This document shows positions 1 through 64,000 of a stretch of 64,000 bases of DNA, piece after piece (the stretch's first letter is position 1; every line of letters starts with the position of its first letter). Location of the stretch: positions 1-64,000 of the forward strand of contig JAJFIX010000037.1 of NCBI GenBank assembly GCA_021774575.1, in the 5' to 3' direction. The position numbers were made by a program, and so were the translations under genes. The notes beneath the pieces are model-generated. The model saw only the letters and a program-made list of their open reading frames with translations. It had not been told where the DNA came from and made no database searches. Source of the DNA: Alphaproteobacteria bacterium (GTDB lineage: Bacteria > Pseudomonadota > Alphaproteobacteria > UBA6615).

Positions 1-338
1 GCAAAGAGCGACTTGCCGCTGTTCACGATCAGGGATTACGAGCAAACAATCGCGCTGGGAACTCACACCAGCCGATTCGTCGACGCGAACAAAAACAACA
101 GCGGTTCAAGTCGCCGGGATCGACCCAACGGTTTCTGTCGATCCATGCTGCCATATACAACGCCTTTGACGTCTAACGCCATCTTCTATCTCGACATATA
201 TTCAAGGCGTTTCGAGCCGCGACGTTCGCTGTCTGGAATCGAGGTTGGCATGCTATCTGATGCGGATCACCATCGACTTCTGGCTACCGCACTAGTTAAC
301 GTGTCAATGCCGTGGCGACTTATTCGCAGCCACATCAA

Positions 339-1772
339 TTAAAGCGAGCTGCCCTGATAAATATCGTCCATGATTTGCTTGAATCTGATAAGTGGACGTT
401 GATCCCGCATCATTGTCAGCGGAACGGAAAAATGGCCGCGGTCCAGAATAAAGCGATTTTCCGACGGCACCCCCCAGGTGTCCAGCGAAAACAAGCCCCC
501 ATTAAACGGTGTGACGACATCGCGGCGCCCGAGTACCGAAACAATATGTTCCGGCTGTACCTGTAACTCCGGTCCCGGATCAAGCAGAGGTAGAAACTCA
601 TGAAGCAAATCCAGGTTCCAACCGATTTCGACCGCGGCCCGTCGAATTCCCCAGATCGACGCCAGAGCGCCGTTGAGAACGGCATCCTCGTGATGATGGC
701 AATGGGTAATCAGCAGCAAGGCATCTGGCCGCAGGTGACCGGCCCAATGTTGGCTTACGTCGGCCGCTAGCTGGGCCATCATGGCGCCGAGACTCGAGCC
801 ACCCATCGCCACTGGCGCATTGGTATTTTGCCGACACCAATTCATGATGACGGACCACTCGCGCAAACCTGCCGTGAAGAGGTCGAGCGGCCCGAACGGC
901 GATGTCCCGACAAATTGCTCGCCACCGAATTGACCTGGAAGCACCCGGCGGCCGTGCCACGGTGCTTCGGGTCGAACGACCCTGAATCCGAATTTTACGA
1001 GAGTCTCAACTTCGTCGACCAACCCATGCCAATGATCAAATTCGACACAGACACCGTGCCCGAAGAGAAGTGTCGGCGGATTTTCAACATTTTCGGGTTC
1101 CTGAACACGGGCATAGACGGTATCCCCGACACGTTGAGACGGTGACGGAAAGCGCAGCCAATAATGCGTACCGACTTCACCGGCAACCTTTCTTGAAACT
1201 TCAATTTCCGGCATCGGAGATGGCACCGAAAATGCAGCGACGGGATCATTGACCAACGGTCCATAAACGGCCCGGACGTCATCCGCATGCGGAATAGCGA
1301 GCTTGATCAGAGGCACTTTGCGTCCTGCCAAAAGAAAACGAAAGAGCCGCCGAGTTGCATTATAGTCGTTGCGGCGATCACGCCGGCCGCTCTCGACCGC
1401 GACCAAATAATCCGGAGAGACCTCGGCCTTCCCAAAAAACGATTTGTCCCATTCCGCCTCCAGCGCGTTGACCGATGCGCGGGCTGCCTCAAATTTGCCA
1501 AGAGCCTGCATCAGGCGCGCACGCTCGCTCGCTCGCGGAGACATCGGCACGGCATCGTAAAATCGCTCCGGCGACCCTTCGGCGGCACGCGCTGCCGCCC
1601 AAAGCCTCGAGGTCGGAAAAAACCATTTACGCAATGTCATCAGGGTGAATTTATCAAACCAGGGCTGTGCAAGGGGGGCCCCTATCGGTTTGCGTAGTAT
1701 CGCGCCAACACCGCGCTCGGCAGGTAATCGATGGCCCGCCGCCGCCAGCTGTGACTTGTTTTGATCAGGCAT
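339..1772 (-). CDS. alpha/beta hydrolase
   Basis: ORF 339..1826; GGSSLGAMMAQ nucleophile elbow (GxSxG) and GHGVCVEFDHW oxyanion-type motif. The start at 1772 (ATG overlapping the upstream stop by 8 nt) looks more likely than 1826. Confidence 0.75.
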   Translation of the reverse strand: MPDQNKSQLAAAGHRLPAERGVGAILRKPIGAPLAQPWFDKFTLMTLRKWFFPTSRLWAAARAAEGSPERFYDAVPMSPRASERARLMQALGKFEAARASVNALEAEWDKSFFGKAEVSPDYLVAVESGRRDRRNDYNATRRLFRFLLAGRKVPLIKLAIPHADDVRAVYGPLVNDPVAAFSVPSPMPEIEVSRKVAGEVGTHYWLRFPSPSQRVGDTVYARVQEPENVENPPTLLFGHGVCVEFDHWHGLVDEVETLVKFGFRVVRPEAPWHGRRVLPGQFGGEQFVGTSPFGPLDLFTAGLREWSVIMNWCRQNTNAPVAMGGSSLGAMMAQLAADVSQHWAGHLRPDALLLITHCHHHEDAVLNGALASIWGIRRAAVEIGWNLDLLHEFLPLLDPGPELQVQPEHIVSVLGRRDVVTPFNGGLFSLDTWGVPSENRFILDRGHFSVPLTMMRDQRPLIRFKQIMDDIYQGSSL

Positions 1773-3198
1773 GAGTGATTTCAAGGCTCGGAATAAAATG
1801 GATGATGGAATTGGAGTAATAGCCAATCAATGGCCGTTCCGCAAAATTCAAACAGATCGCCCCGTTTGTATTCCGCTGCAATAATTTTCGGCCAAGCAGC
1901 ATTTCCAAAGCGTCCTCAAATAGAGGTACGGACTGTTTGTTTGGAAATAGCACATGGCCCCCATTGGATTGCGCCTCCGTAGATGCCGCATCAAATTTCC
2001 GGCGCAATTCCGCCTCGGTGTACTCTGCGTCGACACAATGTTGGAAAATCGCGCACAAAATTGACGTTGGCAGAACTGGCACCAAATGCCGAACGTTATC
2101 CTGTAACTCGTCGGCCAGCTCCCCAATCCATTCGAACTTTTCGGTGCGATCCAAGAGCGGCCAATTTAGCGAATTCTGCCTGAGCCATTCGGTAAAAGAG
2201 ACCGGCGAACCATAATTGGCGCAAGCATATCCATAGGGCTGGCCACGGCCGCGCAACCGATGTCCAATGACACGCCGAATGAAGGCCCCAGCAGAGCGCA
2301 ATATGAAAAAATTTCCCGCATTCACAAAACTGTCGGACGCCCGGGCGATGAGCGTTCGTTCTTCCGGAATGCGCTCGTAATTGGTTCCAATCGGTATAAA
2401 TACAATATCCGGGCTGGCGTTTGGATCGAAATCGCGGGTGATATAGGTCAGCATACCCAATTTCGGTTTCTGCAAGTAACCGTCACGCGATAGCGCGCCT
2501 TCAACAAACAGTGCGTGCGGGACCCGCTCTTGAGTTAACATTTGTACAAATCGCTCCAGCACTTTGCGATAGAGCGGATCCCCGGAATCACGCCGCAGAA
2601 AATACCCACCTGCCGCCCGCATTAGTGGCTGAATAGGCCAAACCTTTGCCCATTCGCCAATCCCATAGGACATTGTGCTGCGAGTTGCCGTCATGTAGGT
2701 GGCAAGCACGTAGTCGATATTGGTCCGGTGGTTCATGAAGAACACGACCGCGCTGTCATCGGAGACCTTCGCAAGGCCGTCACTATCCATGTACCCCAAT
2801 CGCACCTTGTACATGAACCTCAAAAGGGCCCGCGCTGACCAATAACCAACCCTGAAATAGAAATAGGGGCTGAATGCCGGCACGATTTCGTAGGCAATTC
2901 TTGTGACTTGCTTGCGCAGGGTGGCGACCGGCTGTCGTGTTTCGCCGGCGAGCTCCTTGATATAATCGCTGACCTCCGCGTCGTAGGCGAGGCGATCTGC
3001 TAATATTCGCCGACGCGTCAGCGAAAATTGCGACACCTGAAGCTGAAGACGCGAATTGACCTCATCGACAACCCGCTGAGAACGCCGTCGTATCATCCAA
3101 CCGAGGGTCGGTGGCAACAGGTGGCGGTAGACGGCGGTGGCAGAAAGAACCGTCAGTATCAAAAGTACGATGAGCGGGACGCTGACGGTGCTCAACAT
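1765..3198 (-). CDS. 1-acylglycerol/glycerol-3-phosphate acyltransferase (PlsB/PlsC-like)
   Basis: NHRTNIDYVL (NHX4D acyltransferase motif) and FVEGALSRDG motif in a 477-aa ORF. Confidence 0.8.
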   Translation of the reverse strand: MLSTVSVPLIVLLILTVLSATAVYRHLLPPTLGWMIRRRSQRVVDEVNSRLQLQVSQFSLTRRRILADRLAYDAEVSDYIKELAGETRQPVATLRKQVTRIAYEIVPAFSPYFYFRVGYWSARALLRFMYKVRLGYMDSDGLAKVSDDSAVVFFMNHRTNIDYVLATYMTATRSTMSYGIGEWAKVWPIQPLMRAAGGYFLRRDSGDPLYRKVLERFVQMLTQERVPHALFVEGALSRDGYLQKPKLGMLTYITRDFDPNASPDIVFIPIGTNYERIPEERTLIARASDSFVNAGNFFILRSAGAFIRRVIGHRLRGRGQPYGYACANYGSPVSFTEWLRQNSLNWPLLDRTEKFEWIGELADELQDNVRHLVPVLPTSILCAIFQHCVDAEYTEAELRRKFDAASTEAQSNGGHVLFPNKQSVPLFEDALEMLLGRKLLQRNTNGAICLNFAERPLIGYYSNSIIHFIPSLEITHA

Positions 3199-3561
3199 GG
3201 CGCACCAACCCCTGTATGGCCCGGCTCGGCGCCTCCAACAAACAATGGGAGACGAAGCCCGCTCACCGGCGAATTATCGCGGCACCACCGGACCAATCGG
3301 CTGTCACCACAATTGCAAGGATCCAGATCAATCAATATTTCGCCTGCTCCAATGCAATATGTGCGAACAAATGGCGTGGGCTTTGAGTCACCCTATTCTT
3401 CGCAGGCATCAATCTTCAGATCAATAGTAATGCAGGAGGGGATCGCTATTATGTTCCTCAAGCCGCTTATTTTACCGGCGATATCGACGCCCGCGACGGC
3501 ACTGTCATGGGCACTGTCACATTAACCGACCGCGAGCGTAAGAATTCCCGGCTATCACTTT

Positions 3562-4257
3562 TCAGGCCGCCGCACGTGGGCTGTCCCACATATCGAATGC
3601 CCTGGCACGATACCGCTTGAACGTAATTCGCTTGATGAGACGGCGTTGAAGGTAAAAATTGTTGTAGACGGCAGATCGGATGTTCAGGAATCGTTGGGCG
3701 GAACCTGGTGGCTTGAATCGTTGCTGCTTTCGTTCTCTTCGCCGAACTGGGTGGTGCGAATTCTCCGCCCCGTTATTTGATCGCTTACTATCAACGTGTT
3801 CAGCCGTCAGGCCAATAAATTGAAAGGCAATGTGATAGGATCGTAGCTTATCGGTCACAATCCGGGTTGGTGCGAAGCCCTGTCGCTTCATGAGTTTCCG
3901 CATCAGCTTCAGTGCCGCTCTGGCATTACGTCTCCGTTGAACTAGAAACTCGAGAACCTCGCCCTCGTTGTCCACGGCACGCCATAGCCAATGTCGTCTG
4001 CGGCGGATCACAATGGCCATCTCGTCAAGATGCCAGTGGTTACTGGGCGTTGGTCGCGATCGCCGAAGATTGTGGGCAATCGGCACGCCAAATTTCGTAA
4101 ACCAGCGCCTAACGGTCTCGTATGAAATATCGAGACCGCGTTCCGACAGTAATTCTTCAACATCCCGAAAGCTGAGAGTGAACTTGGCGTATAGCCAAAC
4201 CGAATGACGAACGATATCGGGTGAAAATCGATGGCGTTTAAAGTTGAGATGGTGCAT
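3562..4257 (-). mobile_element. IS6-family (IS26-like) transposase, apparently full-length DDE
   Basis: 231 aa: RFSPDIVRHSVWLYAKFTLSFRDVEELLSERGLDISYETVRRW, HLDEMAI (D), IVTDKLRSY (D), SNNGAENSHHPVRRRER (E). Confidence 0.9.
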
Positions 4258-4541
4258 GCATCGAAGCCGAGGCCGCTTTTCAGCGCAGCCGAAGTAGAAA
4301 GCCGGGACACCGGCGCTCGCCCTCTCCCCACCTCAAAACCCTATTCCTGCTTTGGAGGGTTTGAAACGGCCCTTCTCCCAATATTAATGGGGGTAAGGCC
4401 ATCACTGTCTGCGGGCCCGGCGGCAATCTGCTTCTTTCAGTCGCCGTAGGGGCCGAAAGTGGACATAATGACTGTCCTCGGAACTCCGTTATATTATTGG
4501 AAGGGATGGGGGCAGCAAAAAATACTGGAGGCGTATTGTAT

Positions 4542-4724
4542 CTATGCATTCAGAAGTTCGTGGATCTTCAGGGCGAGTGCTTTATTCTCATAGGGTTTAT
4601 CTATCCAATCAAAATCACCGTCGACCAATTGCGTAGTGATCGTGCTCTTTAGCGTATACCCCGAGGTAATTAATGTTCTGAGGCCCCGGCGCAGCTCTCT
4701 TGCTTTTTCGGCGACCTCTGGTCT
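4542..4724 (-). pseudogene. truncated response-regulator receiver domain (C-terminal end only)
   Basis: Hand translation of the minus strand gives RPEVAEKARELRRGLRTLITSGYTLKSTITTQLVDGDFDWIDKPYENKALALKIHELLNA*, with TSGY and KPY receiver motifs. It runs straight into the IS3 terminus near 4725. Confidence 0.75.
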
Positions 4725-4756
4725 TGTCCCGGATTGATTCCGGGTCCATTAGTCAT

Positions 4757-5417
4757 TTAAGCTGCTTTTTGTTCGAAGGCCAATGGACTTTTTCCACCTA
4801 AAGTTGAGTGCGTCTGCGTGGGTTGTAAAAGCCGATGATATATTTAAGGAGTGCGGCTTCGGCCTGCCGTCGGGTCTGCCATTGATGCCGCCAGATCAGT
4901 TCTGCCTTCACCGTTTTGAAGAAAGTTTCGACCGCTGCATTCTCATAGCAATTGCCCTTGCCGCTCATCGAGACCTTGAAGCCGTGTTGCCGCAACCGAT
5001 TTTGATAATCGTGAGAGCAATACTGACTGCCCCGATCCGTATGATGGATGCAGCCCGGCATCGGCTTGCGCAGGGCTACAGCCATATCCAAAGCCCTGAT
5101 TGCCAGGTCTTTCTTCAGTCGATTGCTGACGGCCCAACCGATGATACGCCGCGAATGCAGATCCAGCATCACTGCGAGATACAACCAGCCTCCCGCGTCC
5201 AGATATAACTGATATCGCCGACCCATTTCCGGTCCGGTGCATCCGCCATGAAGTTGCGGTTCAACAGGTTGGGCGCGATATTGAAGTTGTGATTGCTGTC
5301 CGTTGTCACCTTGTACTTGCGGGTTCGCACAACAGATATGGCGTTCTGGCGCAACAAACGGCCAACACGACGGTGACCGACATTAAGGCCAAGCTCTTTC
5401 AGCCCCTCGGTCATCAC
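4757..5417 (-). pseudogene. IS3-family transposase OrfB, frameshifted and 5'-truncated
   Basis: Two overlapping ORFs (5169..5417 NVGHRRVGRLLRQNAISVVRTRKYKVTTDSNHNFNIAPNLLNRNF and 4798..5226 LDLHSRRIIGWAVSNRL...HHTDRGSQYCS...ENAAVETFFKTVKAEL) require a frameshift near 5200. A second shift near 4806 restores the usual HSTLGGKSPLAFEQKAA* tail. Confidence 0.85.
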
Positions 5418-25529: not shown

Positions 25530-27101
25530 TTGTCTGGAACGATTGCTCGATTTCGAGGATCTCGGAATAGGTGTGGGGAATGTGTTGTGGGAATATCTAG
25601 ATATCGTCGGATAGGTCTGTACTCGATTGCCGGGATAATTGTTTTTGGCATTGGCTTTGCCAGCATCTTTGCGGGTGCTCTACTGGCCCGGCAAATTTTA
25701 AGAGATGGGTTGTCCGCGACGGATGCGGGGAGTCATGCCGAATTGACTCTTCGCGTTTCTATGCTTGAGGCGCAGCTTAAAGCTGTTACGGAAAATTCCG
25801 ACAGGCTGCGGTCCCTGGTCCTTGCACCGAGAGCATCACGTGATCAAATCGACGGGTTATATATGACTGTTGCACAGGCACCAGTCGCAGCTGGGCCGAT
25901 GCTGGACGACAAGGCGACCAACCGAATGCCGGAACAGCTCGCGCAGACGGTGCCTGATCTTGCGGCGTTCGTTCGTATCGAAATGGGAGAAATTAGCGGT
26001 GTGCTAGGCCCTCATATTATTTTCGAGGGGGCAAATGTTCATTTTCGCAGCGGTAGTGGGGCGACGGCAGAACGCGGTAACGGCCTTGGCAATGTGATCG
26101 TTGGCTACAACGAGACGCCTGAACAACTGGTGGCTGCGCAACGAAGTGGAATGCACAATCTCATTGTTGGGCCCGAACATATTTTCTCCGGCTATGGCGG
26201 TTTTGTCGCCGGATTCAACAACACCATAGAGGGCGATTTTGCCAGTGCGAGCGGTGGTCGCCAAAATGGAGCCCTTGGCGCGAACAGTAGCGTCAGCGGC
26301 GGTTACGGAAACGATGCCGTAGGTGAAAACAGCAGCGTCAGCGGCGGTTTCCGCAACAAAGCGAACGGTGACAATTCCAGCATTAGCGGCGGTTTTAATA
26401 ATGCCGCAGACAACGAAACCGCAAGTGTCAGCGGCGGTGCGGGGAATACCGCACGAGGAAGATCTTCAAGTGTCGCCGGTGGGGCCAGAAATACCGCTAT
26501 CGGCCGTAATTCGAGTATCGCTGGTGGCGGAGATAATATTGCCAACGCGGATACCTCTACCGTTAGCGGTGGCAATGGCAATACCGCGAGTGGCCCGGGG
26601 GCGAGCGTCAGCGGCGGTTTTGGCAACACCGCCAGCGGCCGTGAAGCAAGTGTCAGCGGCGGCACCGGTAATACCGCCAGTGGCAGCACCGCGTCCGTTG
26701 GTGGCGGCTCTATGAACACGGCGTCCGCTGTGTCATCGAGCGTCGGCGGCACAACAGCCGTTGTAGACGACGGTCCTGTGGATGCTATCGTCGCCCAAGG
26801 CTTGGTTGTATTCGAAGCCAATTGCGCCGTTTGTCATACATCGGAGGAGGGCGGCGGCAATCGGACCGGGCCAAATCTATTCGGTGTCTTCGGGTCGCAG
26901 GCCGGGTTGCGTGATGTCGCGGAACGAGTGACGTCAAACGCGTTGAAGGCAAGCGGTCTAACTTGGAATGAGGACACGCTAAACAGTTGGCTTTCCGGCC
27001 TGCCCTCCCAGTTTGTTCCAGGAGTGCGCATGGGATTTACCGGTATTGAAAACGAAGCCGACCGAGCAGCGCTTATTGAACTGGTGAAAACTTTTCGATG
27101 A
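25530..27101 (+). CDS. membrane-anchored YadA/hemagglutinin-like repeat protein fused to a C-terminal class I c-type cytochrome
   Basis: N-terminal TM (IGLYSIAGIIVFGIGFASIFAGALLA), a coiled-coil-like segment, eleven 15-aa (S/A)SVSGGxxNxAxGxx units, then GLVVFEANCAVCHTSEEGGGNRTGPNLFGVFG...FVPGVRMGFTG (CXXCH heme site and distal Met). Confidence 0.85.
   Translation: MSGTIARFRGSRNRCGECVVGISRYRRIGLYSIAGIIVFGIGFASIFAGALLARQILRDGLSATDAGSHAELTLRVSMLEAQLKAVTENSDRLRSLVLAPRASRDQIDGLYMTVAQAPVAAGPMLDDKATNRMPEQLAQTVPDLAAFVRIEMGEISGVLGPHIIFEGANVHFRSGSGATAERGNGLGNVIVGYNETPEQLVAAQRSGMHNLIVGPEHIFSGYGGFVAGFNNTIEGDFASASGGRQNGALGANSSVSGGYGNDAVGENSSVSGGFRNKANGDNSSISGGFNNAADNETASVSGGAGNTARGRSSSVAGGARNTAIGRNSSIAGGGDNIANADTSTVSGGNGNTASGPGASVSGGFGNTASGREASVSGGTGNTASGSTASVGGGSMNTASAVSSSVGGTTAVVDDGPVDAIVAQGLVVFEANCAVCHTSEEGGGNRTGPNLFGVFGSQAGLRDVAERVTSNALKASGLTWNEDTLNSWLSGLPSQFVPGVRMGFTGIENEADRAALIELVKTFR
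26241..26735 (+). repeat. 45-bp (15-aa) coding tandem repeat, 11 copies
   Basis: Consensus (S/A)SVSGGxxNxAxGxx from ASASGGRQNGALGAN to ASVGGGSMNTASAVS, no gaps. Confidence 0.9.
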
Positions 27102-27190: not shown

Positions 27191-27595
27191 CTATCTCGTA
27201 ATATCGGCCCCGGCCTCGAGCCAAGCCGCCAGCAAATTTCGTTCGCCGTCGGTCATATTGGTTTCGTTGAAGAGCGGCATAACTTTAATCTCGACGGCCA
27301 TCAATTTGATTTTTGCCGCCAATGCTTGGATTTGCTCGGGCGTGTCGAAAATTATATCGTTGGGTGGCGAGAGGTAGCCCGGCTGCGTCGGGGACACCGA
27401 ATGGCAGACGGTGCAGCGCTCGGCAATAATTGGCCCGATCTCGCCGAAAGAGACAGCATCCTGCGCGAATGCGCCCGGTATTATTGCCGGGGCGAGGGCG
27501 GTCAAACCCGCGACAGTGAACGCGGCTGCCAGTGTCGATTTATGTGTCGATTTATGTGTCGATTTAAGGACTTCACCTAGCTTTATGGGCATGAT
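27191..27595 (-). CDS. stand-alone c-type cytochrome resembling the C-terminal cytochrome domain of urate hydroxylase PuuD
   Basis: Signal peptide-like N-terminus; AERCTVCHSVSPTQPGYLSPPNDIIFDTPEQIQALAAKIKLMAVEIKVMPLFNETNMTDGERNLLAAWLEAGA. Confidence 0.8.
   Translation of the reverse strand: MMPIKLGEVLKSTHKSTHKSTLAAAFTVAGLTALAPAIIPGAFAQDAVSFGEIGPIIAERCTVCHSVSPTQPGYLSPPNDIIFDTPEQIQALAAKIKLMAVEIKVMPLFNETNMTDGERNLLAAWLEAGADITR
27532..27567. repeat. 12-bp tandem repeat x3 inside the cytochrome leader (encodes STHK)
   Basis: gtgtcgatttat gtgtcgatttat gtgtcgatttaa. Confidence 0.9.
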
Positions 27596-27748
27596 CATGG
27601 TCCGTATTTGGTTGATAGGAAGTTCAACGGCCGGATAGATCACCAAACTGGCCAGAATTATGGCAAAATAATTCCAATTTTGGGAGCGAAAACTTTCAGC
27701 ACTAATCTTGTCAATGCCCGCGACCCATTATGATCGCGAACATGACCA

Positions 27749-63646: not shown

Positions 63647-64000
63647 ATGAATTTGCCGCAATTTGCCGCGCTGGTGGTTATTGCCGCTGCATCCACTCTA
63701 CCTTTAAAGGCGCAGGCACAAGATGCCGCCGCCGGTGAAGCGTTGTTTGGCAGCAGGTGTACCGCCTGCCACACGGCCGAAGAAGGCGGTATTTCCGGTT
63801 CGGGCCCCAATTTATTTGGGGTCTCCGGTGCCGTGGCGTCTAACCGTGGGATCGAGTTTAACTATTCGGATGCGCTGATCGATAGTGGCGTTATTTGGGA
63901 CGAAGGCAATCTGGATGCCTGGCTGGAATCGCCCGATGATTTCGTGCCCGGCAACAAGATGCCGTTCCCGGGCCTCGCCGCTGCTGGTGAACGCGCCGAT
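63647..64000 (+). CDS. class I c-type cytochrome (runs off window end)
   Basis: Signal peptide; AGEALFGSRCTACHTAEEGGISGSGPNLFGVSG...DDFVPGNKMPFPG; no stop before 64000. Confidence 0.9.
   Translation, partial: MNLPQFAALVVIAAASTLPLKAQAQDAAAGEALFGSRCTACHTAEEGGISGSGPNLFGVSGAVASNRGIEFNYSDALIDSGVIWDEGNLDAWLESPDDFVPGNKMPFPGLAAAGERAD

Follow-up and report, generated by a model that had tools for sequence, protein, structure and literature searches.

A single open frame joining a capped beta-roll repeat array to a class I cytochrome c domain in an alphaproteobacterial genome

In the window (the whole stretch of 64,000 nucleotides analysed here, taken from an alphaproteobacterial genome), we found a single gene in which a hydrophobic N-terminal helix, a short coiled-coil-like stretch, a conserved cap and eleven 15-residue repeats are followed in the same frame by a class I cytochrome c domain. 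All of these parts are known, their combination was found once, and it is possible that further examples exist in other genomes. We see about an even chance that the fusion protein is a membrane-anchored, periplasm-facing electron carrier, similar to cytochrome cy and equipped with a stiff spacer.

Layout of the gene

The frame at 25530-27101 (+) is open across 523 codons, and the features read in it are as follows.

25587..27101, +, fusion gene, probable coding sequence of 504 aa with a GTG start (open frame, start contexts)
25617..25688, +, hydrophobic anchor or signal helix, residues 30-53 (KD19 peak 2.3; RYRR ahead, positive-inside)
25743..25826, +, short coiled-coil-like stretch, residues 72-99 (heptad positions occupied by the core L-L-V-L / V-L-S-V)
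25986..26240, +, conserved beta-roll cap, residues 153-237, GPHIIFEGANVHFRSGSGAT...NGLGNVIVGYNE...RSGMHNLIVG (alignment A1; 51% match in G832)
26241..26735, +, eleven 15-aa repeats (S/A)S(V)SGGxxNxAxGxx, putative UspA1-type left-handed parallel beta-roll layers (periodicity, 3pr7 match)
26736..26786, +, junction, an aborted twelfth repeat (SSVGG) giving way to TTAVVDDGPVDA ahead of the cytochrome (sequence)
26787..27098, +, class I (mitochondrial/c2/c550-like) cytochrome c domain (Pfam, NCBIfam and PDB matches)
26823..26837, +, heme c attachment motif CAVCH, residues 432-436 (read directly; aligned with PDB cytochromes c)
27030..27032, +, distal heme ligand Met501 in VRMGF (equivalent, in the alignment, to the Met of GTKMIF in cytochrome c)

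The longest possible start, TTG at 25530, lacks a purine-rich leader. GTG at 25587 is preceded by GTGGGGAA (GGGGAA upstream), which is a better ribosome-binding context than that of the TTG, so that GTG is the likelier start and the product would comprise ~504 aa rather than 523. Residue numbers (P0001) refer to the 523-aa frame throughout, with the helix at 30-53, the heptad-like stretch at 72-99, the cap at 153-237, the repeats at 238-402 and the cytochrome at 420-523. The repeat DNA leaves two other frames open, one antisense (26303-26821, -, 172 aa) and one sense (26323-26715, +, 130 aa); both are probably by-products of the 45-bp repeats, and we see no evidence that they are genes.

A sequence-only reading of this DNA had described one 523-aa frame with, in this order, an N-terminal TM helix, a coiled-coil-like stretch, a gap-free array of eleven repeats and a CXXCH cytochrome of class I. 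We found no stop between 25530 and 27101, and the order of domains agreed with ours, the anchor-like N-terminus being supported by hydropathy (KD19 2.3); the conserved cap between stalk and repeats had been overlooked. An AGA site leaves cleavage possible, the hydropathy peak being 2.3; we infer that the helix anchors the protein rather than being cleaved off. Single-sequence AlphaFold modelled the coiled-coil-like stretch as one long helix at low confidence.

Cap, repeats and cytochrome domain

The family consensus of the cap is NGLGNLIVGYNE...RSGSHN.VVG (also RxGSHN), and it stands ahead of 15-aa repeats. Alignment A1, with 13 Planctomycetota proteins, gave identities of 35-54% and 17 invariant columns over cap and repeats. 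The fusion protein matched the cap-family profile at 2.1e-45, the window protein itself being a member of that profile, and independent single-sequence matches to cap and repeats reached identities of up to 51-54%. Judged from these alignments, the fusion protein is a member of a family that combines the cap with SVSGG repeats. Queried with the cap and first repeats, Planctomycetota gave matches in 17 of 149 genomes (best match 1.5e-28, at 51% identity) and Gammaproteobacteria in 6 of 274, counts in which some members have no cap and the weak matches are to repeats alone. Five of 145 Verrucomicrobiota had weak repeat-only matches, and repeat arrays were matched in Bacteroidota by the whole fusion protein. 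Among 385 Alphaproteobacteria, a single-sequence search matched one genome and the profile two, the cap occurring solely in the window gene; the second profile match (L096 in G268) is a tail-fibre-like protein of the same repeat class, with neither cap nor CXXCH. In the host's own family, one of 24 genomes was matched, the window gene was the single match in a 399-genome draw of the phylum, and a search for the cap in viral contigs and plasmids gave no match. One further protein with a beta-roll comes from a planctomycete (L052 in G863). Its serine/threonine kinase domain (Pfam Pkinase, 7.9e-40) precedes a TM-like segment and then 15-aa SVGGG beta-roll repeats; here too a roll is joined to an unrelated membrane-anchored enzyme.

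The periodicity of the repeats is strict. Every one of the eleven repeats has G at unit positions 5 and 6, N at 9 and A at 11; lag-15 identity reaches 0.57, and shuffling the same residues 20,000 times never gave more than 0.26; TRF reported 45-bp periods at 26283-26395 and 26561-26684. Using phmmer, UspA1 (PDB 3pr7) was matched at 6e-17 over residues 226-374 of the fusion protein, and the cap-family profile matched, in the PDB, UspA1 3pr7 (5e-21), UspA1 3ntn (1.7e-6) and the grass ice-recrystallisation inhibitor 3ult (1.5e-4). The 3pr7 crystal form of UspA1 is a trimeric left-handed beta-roll, and grass ice-binding proteins are monomers. UspA1 is unlike other left-handed parallel beta-rolls in that its layers are mostly of 15 residues and have an additional conserved glycine (PMC9543794); the fusion repeats have an exact 15-residue period with GG in all eleven, as in UspA1 layers. 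Because of this shared period and GG, a trimeric roll is the likeliest state, and the beta-roll of the fusion protein is probably a homotrimer. We say probably because the family profile also matches the grass beta-roll 3ult, a monomer type. The sequence-only reading had likened the repeats to YadA/hemagglutinin heads and had proposed a domain search for PF05658-like repeats together with Cytochrom_C. The beta-roll stood up on the UspA1 matches above, the likeness to YadA gave way to one to UspA1, and the Pfam search of the fusion protein reported Cytochrom_C (25.6 bits, above the cut-off of 21.3) and no match to PF05658.

In single-sequence AlphaFold models, the repeat region alone was confident, being beta with pLDDT about 80-89, and two such models compared with the PDB by Foldseek had no match with E below 0.001. 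The codons of the invariant G, G, N and A show no change at positions 1 and 2 and 0.6 changes per pair at position 3. With 27 of the 55 pairs of repeat units usable, their median dN/dS comes to about 0.31, which shows that the repeats have been under constraint, whether or not this continued after the fusion.

The C-terminal domain matched a PDB cytochrome c at 5e-20 and NCBIfam Cyt550 (cytochrome c-550 CycA) at 1.7e-13, the latter well under the equivalog's own cut-off and so indicating the same superfamily only. The CXXCH motif and distal Met proposed earlier align, as CAVCH and Met501, with PDB cytochromes c; on these alignments the heme domain belongs to class I of the cytochromes c and keeps its heme-binding residues. 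By identity, the sequence nearest to it is that of a stand-alone periplasmic cytochrome encoded elsewhere in this genome (C25:201213, 131 aa, 52% over 102 residues). In the cytochrome tree, the fusion domain falls among cytochromes of the host's family and class on a long branch (0.92) with no sister resolved, so that an origin from the genome's own paralogue is suggested by identity alone. The Asn-Pro usual before the Met loop is lost (GLPSQFVPG in place of NPxxFxPG), and this loss, together with the long branch, could reflect relaxed constraint on the cytochrome. Another stand-alone periplasmic class I cytochrome c (L079), 44% identical to the fusion's heme domain, begins at 63722 (+) and runs past the window end at 64000.

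The two halves of the protein thus differ in background, since the cap-repeat module is common elsewhere and the heme domain is at home in the host; the direction of the module's transfer and its donor are matters that we infer.

The join, its surroundings and possible functions

By script, CXXCH together with at least three repeats was found in the window gene only among all loci collected; the reading of individual frames covered a part of the matches, with a minority of the G853 places (29 in all) and none from Bacteroidota. The whole fusion protein had no match in phages, and its matches in plasmids were cytochromes and repeat proteins only, none covering 80%. No search returned an orthologue, and the fusion is known from one genome. 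Literature searches gave no report of a beta-roll or adhesin fused to a cytochrome. The earlier statement that no characterised equivalent was known thus held within the sampled genomes, the annotated phages and plasmids and the literature searched, and the taxonomic survey proposed with it yielded a single case rather than a common architecture. A second long match, L021, was set aside as a multi-cytochrome locus without repeats. This alphaproteobacterial locus (1-5200) encodes two adjoining cytochrome proteins, one with a TM anchor, an Ala/Glu-rich coiled coil and a cytochrome c domain, and they are neighboured by a flavocytochrome-like oxidoreductase and YeeE-like genes.

The same-strand gene upstream of the fusion encodes a DesA-type fatty-acid desaturase that matches the host lineage. 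The desaturase neighbourhoods of relatives showed neither synteny with the fusion gene nor a conserved neighbour, and no obvious redox partner lies next door. A convergent gene (27191-27646, -) encodes a small cytochrome of c type (AERCTVCHS...PPNDIIFDTPEQI...MPLFNETNMT); Pfam gave no match for it, and we take it to resemble the C-terminal cytochrome domain of urate hydroxylase PuuD; a 12-bp tandem repeat at 27532-27566 gives KSTHKSTHKST in its N-terminus.

If the fusion protein is an anchored electron carrier, the N-terminal helix, placed N-in/C-out by the positive-inside rule, would hold it in the inner membrane; the short coiled coil and the left-handed parallel beta-roll (cap plus eleven layers) would form a stiff spacer, probably as a homotrimer; and the heme domain, of class I and of the c2/c550-like type native to the host, would lie at the distal end. 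Electrons would then be carried between periplasmic or membrane redox partners, with the heme several nanometres off the membrane. Such a gene may have originated from a cap-and-repeat gene whose C-terminal end was lost and which acquired a cytochrome domain already resident in the genome. BpaC rises by 81.5 A in total over 20 solved layers (PMC9543794). At ~4 A per layer, eleven layers would measure ~4.5 nm, to which the cap adds perhaps 2 nm and the coiled coil ~4 nm, giving roughly 10 nm on the assumption that roll and coil are stacked end to end. It is rather unlikely that the protein goes as far as being a rigid trimeric mast, with three hemes kept at a fixed ~10 nm from the inner membrane and electrons sent across the periplasm towards the peptidoglycan or outer membrane; if true, it would stand beside flexible tethers and multiheme wires as a structured alternative.

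Two other readings, each with perhaps one chance in a handful, must be set beside the anchored carrier. The beta-roll may be the business end, binding peptidoglycan, the outer membrane, a surface or ice, with the heme domain as a sensor or passenger. Its nearest solved relatives are the adhesin head of UspA1 and the grass inhibitor 3ult, the cap-family relatives are exported and have no electron-transfer domains, and the desaturase upstream belongs to a class often linked to cold. However, we saw no outer-membrane anchor or surface-export signal, so that the roll should stay periplasmic, and the desaturase is not conserved beside the fusion gene in relatives. The fusion may equally be recent and largely accidental, with a cytochrome that still takes heme and a beta-roll that is inherited baggage with no spacer function. 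That the fusion is a singleton, that the cytochrome branch is long and that the repeats end untidily at the junction all fit such an origin, whereas the frame intact over 1.5 kb, the invariant repeat residues despite heavily diverged synonymous sites and the retained heme-binding residues argue against it.

An assembly or binning chimera of two unrelated genes appears improbable. The assembly is a draft of 46 contigs, the region is repeat-rich and no second genome has the join; nevertheless, the join is in frame, without an N run and within a 237-kb contig, GC3 is similar on either side of it (0.50-0.58 in all parts of the gene), and both the cytochrome half and the upstream neighbour match the host lineage. 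Despite its UspA1-type head repeats, we rule out a true trimeric autotransporter adhesin (type Vc), because there is no YadA barrel (Pfam finds no YadA_anchor) and a cytochrome c domain occupies the C-terminus.

If the anchored carrier is expressed as predicted, a stiff spacer adjustable by repeat number would be an added way of placing a periplasmic cytochrome, the control of electron transfer by distance and rigidity would become testable, and a beta-roll module would have been re-used for redox instead of adhesion, probably after moving between phyla. The biological weight of the fusion is uncertain, as it is a singleton.

Comparison with known systems

The fusion shares with UspA1/YadA-class heads the 15-residue layers with their GG signature; unlike that class, it has no C-terminal YadA barrel, carries a heme domain and has a putative N-terminal TM anchor instead. 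The cap-family proteins that we read (e.g., L036, L053, L058 and L060; Planctomycetota and Gammaproteobacteria) are exported and, like the fusion, consist of a signal or TM segment, often a coiled coil, the cap and repeats, but several end in D(W)xAGSLFE(D/N) tails and the frames read contain no CXXCH. The grass LbR_Ice_bind protein (3ult), a plant protein without heme or anchor, resembles the cap and first repeats by a weak profile match, PF21300 scoring 26.2 bits with the cap fragment and 22.6 with the whole protein, both under the cut-off of 30. Cytochromes c2/c550 of the CycA type have a similar heme domain; those are small and soluble, whereas that of the fusion is joined to other parts and more divergent.

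Cytochrome cy (CycY of R. capsulatus) and c552 of P. denitrificans have, in the order predicted for the fusion, an N-terminal TM helix, a spacer and a C-terminal class I cytochrome of ~100 residues (PMC7876108). Cytochrome cy, which accepts electrons from bc1 and delivers them to the oxidase or reaction centre, comprises a TM helix of 30 residues, a linker of 69 and a cytochrome of 100, and the length of its linker affects which partner is served fast enough (PMC7876108). That linker is unresolved in the cryo-EM map, whereas the spacer of the fusion consists of ~365 residues of putative coiled coil, cap and beta-roll.
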